Source: Terriglobia bacterium | GTDB taxonomy: Bacteria > Acidobacteriota > Terriglobia > Acidiferrales > UBA7541 | Length of the DNA stretch: 37,281 nt | Reading direction: 5' to 3' | NCBI GenBank assembly: GCA_020072805.1 | Contig: JAIQGC010000021.1 | Span: 15,498-52,778 of the forward strand | Part shown: positions 34,318 to 34,669 of the stretch, in pieces | Position numbering within the stretch: position 1 is the first letter of the stretch | Layout of the letters: the number at the start of each line of letters is the position of its first letter | Notes under the pieces: model-generated | Databases searched by the model: none | Told to the model about the DNA's origin: nothing | What the model saw: only the letters and a program-made list of their open reading frames with translations | Position numbers and translations under genes: made by a program

Positions 34318-34430
34318 TTACTCTTCGTCCTCTTCTTCCTCTTCTTCGAGTTCTTTTTCGTCCTCGTCGTCTTCTTCGTCTTCGTCCTCTTCCTTCTCCT
34401 CGTCTTCGTCCTCATCGTCGAGATCGTCGG
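34318..34430. repeat. Low-complexity GAA/GAC-type tract encoding the acidic tail
   Basis: The plus strand reads as a run of tc-rich triplets (tcttcg, tcctct, cttcct) over about 110 bases, nearly all Asp or Glu codons on the minus strand. Such a tract is prone to slippage and length variation. Confidence 0.7.
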
Positions 34431-34569
34431 AAATGGGATTCAGATGGACGGGGTGCGTCTGCACGACTTCGAGTTCCATTTCGCACTCGGGGCAGTTGAG
34501 GATCTCGCCTTCCTCGACTTCGTCTTCGTCCACATCAATTTCAGCGGCACAATCCGGGCAGCGAATCAC
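34318..34569 (-). CDS. LysW-like zinc-ribbon protein with poly-Asp/Glu tail
   Basis: An 83-residue protein. The N-terminal 45 residues match the LysW amino-group carrier pattern: C4-x2-C7, AEIDVDEDE, GEILNCPEC with C26 and C29, and a MELEVV strand. LysW proteins carry alpha-amino-dicarboxylates on a C-terminal Glu during lysine or arginine biosynthesis and normally end EDWGE. Here the end is replaced by an acidic tail (residues 48-83) in which all but four residues (L50, K59, K72, L74) are Asp or Glu, finishing in Glu. No lysX, lysZ, lysY or lysJ-type enzymes are in the window. A good AGGAGG precedes the ATG at 34569. It may be a carrier or only a zinc-ribbon paralogue. Confidence 0.8.
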   Translation of the reverse strand: MIRCPDCAAEIDVDEDEVEEGEILNCPECEMELEVVQTHPVHLNPISDDLDDEDEDEEKEEDEDEEDDEDEKELEEEEEEDEE

Positions 34570-34669
34570 GGCTGCGACCTCCTGGTAAAGATTATGAGCG
34601 TGCCAGCAAGCAAGAGGCGAGCGGCAGCAACCAGCGTATTATATACCGCGAGGAGCATCGGGCGCTGAA

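Follow-up and report, generated by a model that had tools for sequence, protein, structure and literature searches.

To our knowledge, the LysW fold has been known only as an amino-acid carrier. LarE is the sulfur insertase of nickel-pincer nucleotide (NPN) synthesis, NPN is linked to a lysine in LarA, and sulfur carriers of the TtuB type are proteins of ubiquitin fold that end in Gly-Gly. LarE resembles TtuA, and TtuB acts as sulfur donor, according to the part of the source available to us (PMC9283937). About 15% of surveyed genomes contain larB, larE and larC but no larA, and the user of NPN in these genomes is unknown, as stated in the accessible text of PMC11796402. In the portions of the open-licence literature that were covered, neither a description of LarE joined with LysW or a zinc ribbon nor a description or name of LysW proteins with acidic tails was found; PMC8305020 holds both LarE and LysW, with its accessible text on LysW and carrier proteins concerning arginine synthesis, and the 'lysW' of PMC5584792, a match for LysW together with Acidobacteria, was set aside as an unrelated transporter on the part of the text at hand. 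Here we describe an acid-tailed LysW-like protein encoded in a stretch of 37,281 nucleotides of a Terriglobia genome (the window). That this LysW-fold protein stands outside LysX-dependent carrier chemistry is well supported by our analysis, and it may, as a tentative reading falling somewhat short of an even chance, have been re-used as a small non-covalent acidic partner of LarE.

The gene lies on the minus strand (34318..34569) and encodes 83 amino acids from a GTG start, with a Shine-Dalgarno sequence, AGGAGG, located 8 nt 5' of it (34578..34583, minus strand). A serine-rich open reading frame on the opposite strand was rejected as the antisense of the acidic codons. Residues 1-47 (34429..34569, minus strand) constitute a LysW-type zinc-ribbon domain, assigned by PF21344, AlphaFold2 and Foldseek, in which the four cysteines of the protein are arranged CPDC...CPEC. 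The match to PF21344 reached 47.3 bits against a Pfam cut-off of 27, and the scores against the two NCBIfam models, TIGR01206 lysW (26.5 against a cut-off of 53.2) and NF041070 (32.1 against 75), were below threshold. An AlphaFold model, for which 31 sequences from the window and the other loci served as input, had a mean pLDDT of 76.7 and a pTM of 0.46, with pLDDT values of about 88-90 over residues 1-40 and of 56-65 in blocks of the tail; as modelled, the acidic tail is probably disordered. The top six PDB matches of Foldseek were all LysW chains with a probability of 1.00, none of them reaching E 0.001, and the core aligned to LysW 5eio_C with 41% identity at 0.9 A (E 1.2e-3), while the best PDB match by sequence profile was LysW 3wwl (E 3.6e-8). 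The tail itself (residues 48-83 and the stop codon, 34318..34428, minus strand), a region of low confidence in the AlphaFold2 model, consists of Asp or Glu at 32 of its 36 positions (12 D, 20 E), together with two Lys and two Leu, and terminates in EEEDEE, so that the last residue is Glu and the EDWG[EQ] end is missing. Given an Asp plus Glu background of 9.7% in ten neighbouring open reading frames of the window, a chance acidic run was ruled out (binomial 1e-28 for 32 of 36). Thus, the start and ribosome-binding site, the above-threshold PF21344 match with a core that fits solved LysW structures, and the composition of the tail bear out what an earlier note had read from the letters, namely an open reading frame with a LysW-like zinc-ribbon half and a 36-residue, nearly all Asp/Glu tail ending in Glu.

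Surveys of PF21344 and of RimK-type ligases were made in 81 genomes drawn evenly from the larger family to which the window belongs. PF21344 was found over cut-off in 75 of these, with one match in 72 and more than one in three (counted by eye), and the LysW-like domain was present in all 23 drawn genomes of the window's class. Among 65 distinct family proteins, collected with a pattern that required CP or CE pairs and missed other second residues, the ribbon was nearly constant whereas the tails varied. The comparison of tail length among relatives that had been proposed earlier gave lengths of 25-50 residues with the acidity kept (median 77% Asp/Glu); Glu was the C-terminal residue in 49 of the 65, ten other residues occupied this position in the remaining 16, and Glu made up 56% of the ten residues preceding the last one. 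In 20 overlapping pairs, selected for matching length and a tail identity of 60% or more, the difference rates at codon positions 1, 2 and 3 were 0.080, 0.092 and 0.343 in the tail and 0.039, 0.013 and 0.239 in the core, the commonest tail replacement being an exchange between Asp and Glu (47 of 129). Together, these rates and exchanges indicate a tail that is looser than the core yet kept acidic; at the level of sequence comparison it appears only loosely constrained, with codon positions 1 and 2 varying more than in the core. Moreover, the tail DNA is imperfectly repetitive (68-71% matches) and uses all four Asp and Glu codons, which, with the acidity kept across the family, rules out replication slippage as the sole cause; the tails are indeed variable, as a slippage-only origin would have it, but pure slippage does not suffice to explain them. 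An aromatic residue within the tail was seen in 43 of 52 tails from outside the window's family (families f27 and f40 having been dropped from this set) versus 17 of 65 inside it.

At the level of the phylum, 197 Acidobacteriota genomes drawn evenly from the larger group contained 98 PF21344 matches over cut-off (matches below it are left out of these counts), 24 of which end in EDWG[EQ] and 74 do not. Sixty-five of these 74 non-canonical matches carry a tail of at least 10 aa with at least 50% Asp/Glu, eight have a shorter or 42-48% acidic tail, and one is an unrelated 411-aa protein (G095). The 63 acid-tailed copies with a stop codon end in Glu (29), Tyr (11), Asp (6), Phe (5) or, in the remaining 12, one of ten other residues, giving 14 different C-terminal residues overall. 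In a separate observation, the LysW-like proteins of four loci (L152, L182, L188 and L190) end in EDW, ESW, EWD or DWS, so that the Trp is kept and the final Glu is lost.

Clustering of neighbouring open reading frames in 74 loci revealed one gene that follows the LysW-like gene, in the same orientation, in 26 of them; it was recognised as LarE by its sequence and confirmed by TIGR00268. Counted by genome, a larE gene in this arrangement was seen in 19 of the 72 genomes with a non-canonical LysW, defined here as any over-cut-off PF21344 match that does not end in EDWG[EQ], and these cases are spread over eight families outside the window's class. By eye, the adjacent LarE was the over-cut-off match in 18 of the 19 genomes, the exception being G220, where the contig ends within the adjacent piece, which falls below the cut-off, and the over-cut-off match is on another contig; no LarC match was found in G093, another of the 19. 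In 15 of 80 named loci, the start of LarE lies no more than 353 nt from that of the LysW-like gene, and the remaining 65 yielded no LarE; 14 of the 15 are titled gp6, Vicinamibacteria or Vicinamibacterales, Luteitalea or plain Acidobacteria, and one is titled Terriglobia (L186). No LarE was present in the examined sequence of two Gemmatimonadetes relatives. Measured from the closest larE start, the overlap with the end of the LysW-like gene is 4 nt in 15 of the 26 loci, 1 nt in two and 47 nt in two. In 17 of 26, all usable larE starts (ATG, GTG or TTG that keep 15 or more residues ahead of the PP-loop) bring the two reading frames into overlap; the seven pairs without an overlapping start are separated by gaps of 11 nt, 31-55 nt (two) and 326-899 nt (four). 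Overlapping pairs occur in families f15, f24, f38 and f61 and in the named records of Vicinamibacteria type. Since an ATGA or GTGA overlap forces the last codon to end in A or G, a C-terminal Glu in these loci may be imposed by the overlap. The LarE copies have a CYxC-type pair in 26 of 26 cases and SACL in 22 of 26.

Likewise, the two proteins tend to occur in the same genomes. LarE was over cut-off in 68 of the 72 genomes with non-canonical copies (67 of 71 when G095 is omitted) versus 79 of the 125 others (Fisher p 4e-7 for the 197 genomes, a value that ignores shared ancestry), and LarC matches were obtained in 147 of the 197 genomes and in 66 of the 72. The window's own genome encodes a LarE scoring 303 bits with the same CYxC/SACL-type motifs; its gene is on contig C130 (L330:8935-9807), a different contig from that of the LysW-like gene and hence not directly downstream of it. 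The NPN pathway appears to be an orphan in this genome, in which LarE is accompanied by a partial LarC match (C38:9673-10386) and a search for LarA (LarA_N) gave no match.

The gene order around the LysW-like gene is different in the window's class. In families f1, f2 and f3 it is not adjacent to larE, and a CarboxypepD_reg gene is commonly next downstream; in the window this position is held by a CarboxypepD_reg-domain protein (PF13620, 33727..34263, minus strand), here regarded as context, which is followed by a second one (PF13620, 33368..33730, minus strand) with a relative 3' of the LysW-like gene in 20 of 22 f2/f3 loci. A NUDIX hydrolase (PF00293, 34670..35218, plus strand) is the head-to-head neighbour; it is conserved next to the gene in many loci of the window's family, distant NUDIX copies lie near the LysW-like gene on the opposite strand in three of ten f28 loci, and its functional membership is only putative. 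By Pfam, the seven neighbours scanned comprise the NUDIX hydrolase, UppS, the two CarboxypepD_reg proteins, DAGK, a winged helix and one protein without match. None of the candidate operon partners within Terriglobia, i.e. NUDIX, UppS, CarboxypepD_reg, DAGK and what we take from their sequences to be a PCMT and a glycosyltransferase, suggested a mechanism. The statement that no lysine or arginine biosynthetic genes are nearby holds for these seven neighbours, and their absence, together with the LysW fold and the acidic tail, makes a function outside lysine or arginine synthesis likely. Elsewhere in the genome ArgJ is present, an indication that arginine is made by the acetylated route, and DapF (PF01678) gave no match despite 99.8% completeness.

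In the mechanism that we propose, the conserved ribbon and the variable acidic tail would form a small docking partner that binds non-covalently, its acidic surface and tail contacting a basic face of LarE, of the sulfur donor of LarE or of the next enzyme. Such binding could help loading or hand-over, and the tail would be selected for its charge more than for its sequence. The adjacency of the two genes in 19 of 72 genomes and 15 of 80 named loci, the overlap of their reading frames and their co-occurrence are consistent with this proposal, as is the constraint on the tail seen in its median acidity and in the Asp-Glu exchanges. On the other side stand the lack of larE adjacency in f1, f2 and f3, the four genomes (G145, G187, G205 and G253) that keep the protein and in which LarE was not found over cut-off, and the 79 genomes that have LarE but no over-cut-off LysW-like copy. 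The missing LarC match of G093, the truncated adjacent LarE of G220, the seven pairs without an overlapping start, the two Gemmatimonadetes relatives, the lack of a LarA match in the window's genome and the loose constraint on the tail also weigh against the proposal. Furthermore, a single event in an ancestor may account for the adjacency. Because a CarboxypepD_reg gene mostly comes after the Terriglobia gene and larE of the window's genome is on another contig, the partnership is extrapolated to this class, and we infer each of its elements, i.e. binding to LarE, an effect on sulfur insertion and a partnership in the window's genome.

The strongest rival, which we consider as likely as the partnership with LarE, holds that the protein is a general acidic zinc-ribbon protein, for instance a mimic of nucleic acids that targets RNA polymerase or ribosomes, a metal buffer or a chaperone, and that the adjacency to larE is an old gene order devoid of functional meaning. 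The near-universal and mostly single-copy occurrence in the family and the class would suit such a role, as would the retention of the protein in the four genomes without over-cut-off LarE and the different downstream gene in Terriglobia. However, an overlap with the larE reading frame in 17 of 26 loci is unusual for unrelated genes, and nothing was found that directly favours a mimic, a buffer or a chaperone. A regulatory role, also named in the earlier note, is conceivable, but none of the observations points to it.

Two further readings stay close to NPN chemistry. It is improbable, but worth naming, that the protein is an unrecognised component of NPN synthesis or use, i.e. a dedicated partner of LarE in the carriage or hand-over of sulfur or the thiolated nucleotide, perhaps towards an NPN acceptor in bacteria with LarE and LarC and without LarA. 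A role as sulfur carrier for LarE, like that of TtuB for TtuA, or as acceptor of the NPN cofactor appears quite unlikely: the similarity of LarE to TtuA and the function of TtuB as donor (PMC9283937, accessible part), the overlapping larE gene and the presence of LarE without LarA in the window's genome would agree with it, but the 14 different terminal residues among 63 copies leave no conserved C-terminus for a thiocarboxylate, and the invariant residues of 31 sequences (C4, P5, C7, G21, C26, C29 and P40) include no Lys for a LarA-like linkage.

The two covalent roles put forward in the earlier note were not supported. A LysW/ArgW-type carrier, with a LysX-like ligase charging the C-terminal Glu with an amino acid in a new pathway, is very unlikely; the fold, the Pfam family and the terminal Glu of the window copy speak for it, but the window's genome yielded no match to the RimK-type ATP-grasp domain PF08443, five weak LysX matches and none over cut-off, and Glu is not conserved at the C-terminus, where no more than 29 of the 63 acid-tailed copies carry it. 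Nor was a second, canonical LysW, which had been named as a possible refutation, found in this genome, a 99.8% complete draft with a single PF21344 match. Across the 197 Acidobacteriota genomes, the 24 canonical LysW proteins occupy the very 24 genomes in which LysX passes the cut-off, and the non-canonical, mostly acid-tailed copies occur independently of this pairing; both types are found together in six genomes (G118, G136, G137, G175, G196 and G231), the non-canonical tail of G118 being 45% acidic. It is scarcely credible that the protein is a substrate of a glutamate ligase with a RimK-like tail extension, as its poly-acidic C-terminus might suggest, since the tail is encoded in the DNA and PF08443, which is present in 21 of the 81 family genomes, is absent from that of the window. 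On the missing ligases and the phylum pattern, both LysX-type carriage and RimK-type glutamylation were rejected for the window's genome. One family member, G013, has seven RimK-type ATP-grasp matches, three of them on one contig, compared to at most two in each other genome of the 81.

If the proposed partnership with LarE is correct, it would represent a second use of the LysW fold in Acidobacteriota, and a 'LysW' annotation based on the domain alone would be misleading for most copies in the phylum (74 of 98 over cut-off are not canonical). In addition, the overlap with larE offers a concrete entry to the question of the NPN user in genomes without larA, as raised in the accessible part of PMC11796402. 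Compared with the LysW/ArgW carriers, the window protein shares the four-Cys zinc ribbon, acidic residues within the ribbon and membership in PF21344, and its core matches the fold of Thermus thermophilus LysW in 5eio at 0.9 A, but it differs in the absence of an EDWG[EQ] end, in its long and variable acidic tail, in scores below the NCBIfam cut-offs and in a genome without LysX over cut-off. The likeness to TtuB and other ubiquitin-like sulfur carriers is an analogy only, that of a small protein beside a PP-loop, [4Fe-4S] sulfur transferase (PMC9283937, in the part consulted), from which the acid-tailed protein differs by its zinc ribbon and the lack of a conserved C-terminus. In the same partially available source, the LarE of T. 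maritima is of the three-Cys [4Fe-4S] type with Cys92, Cys96 and Cys172 as cluster ligands, to which the acidobacterial CYxC and SACL motifs are similar, their equivalence being unproven (PMC9283937). The closest relatives are the acid-tailed LysW-like proteins of other Acidobacteriota, which have in common with the window protein the ribbon, an acidic tail of variable length and mostly one copy per genome, and whose genes precede larE in eight families, whereas in Terriglobia the gene mostly precedes a CarboxypepD_reg gene.
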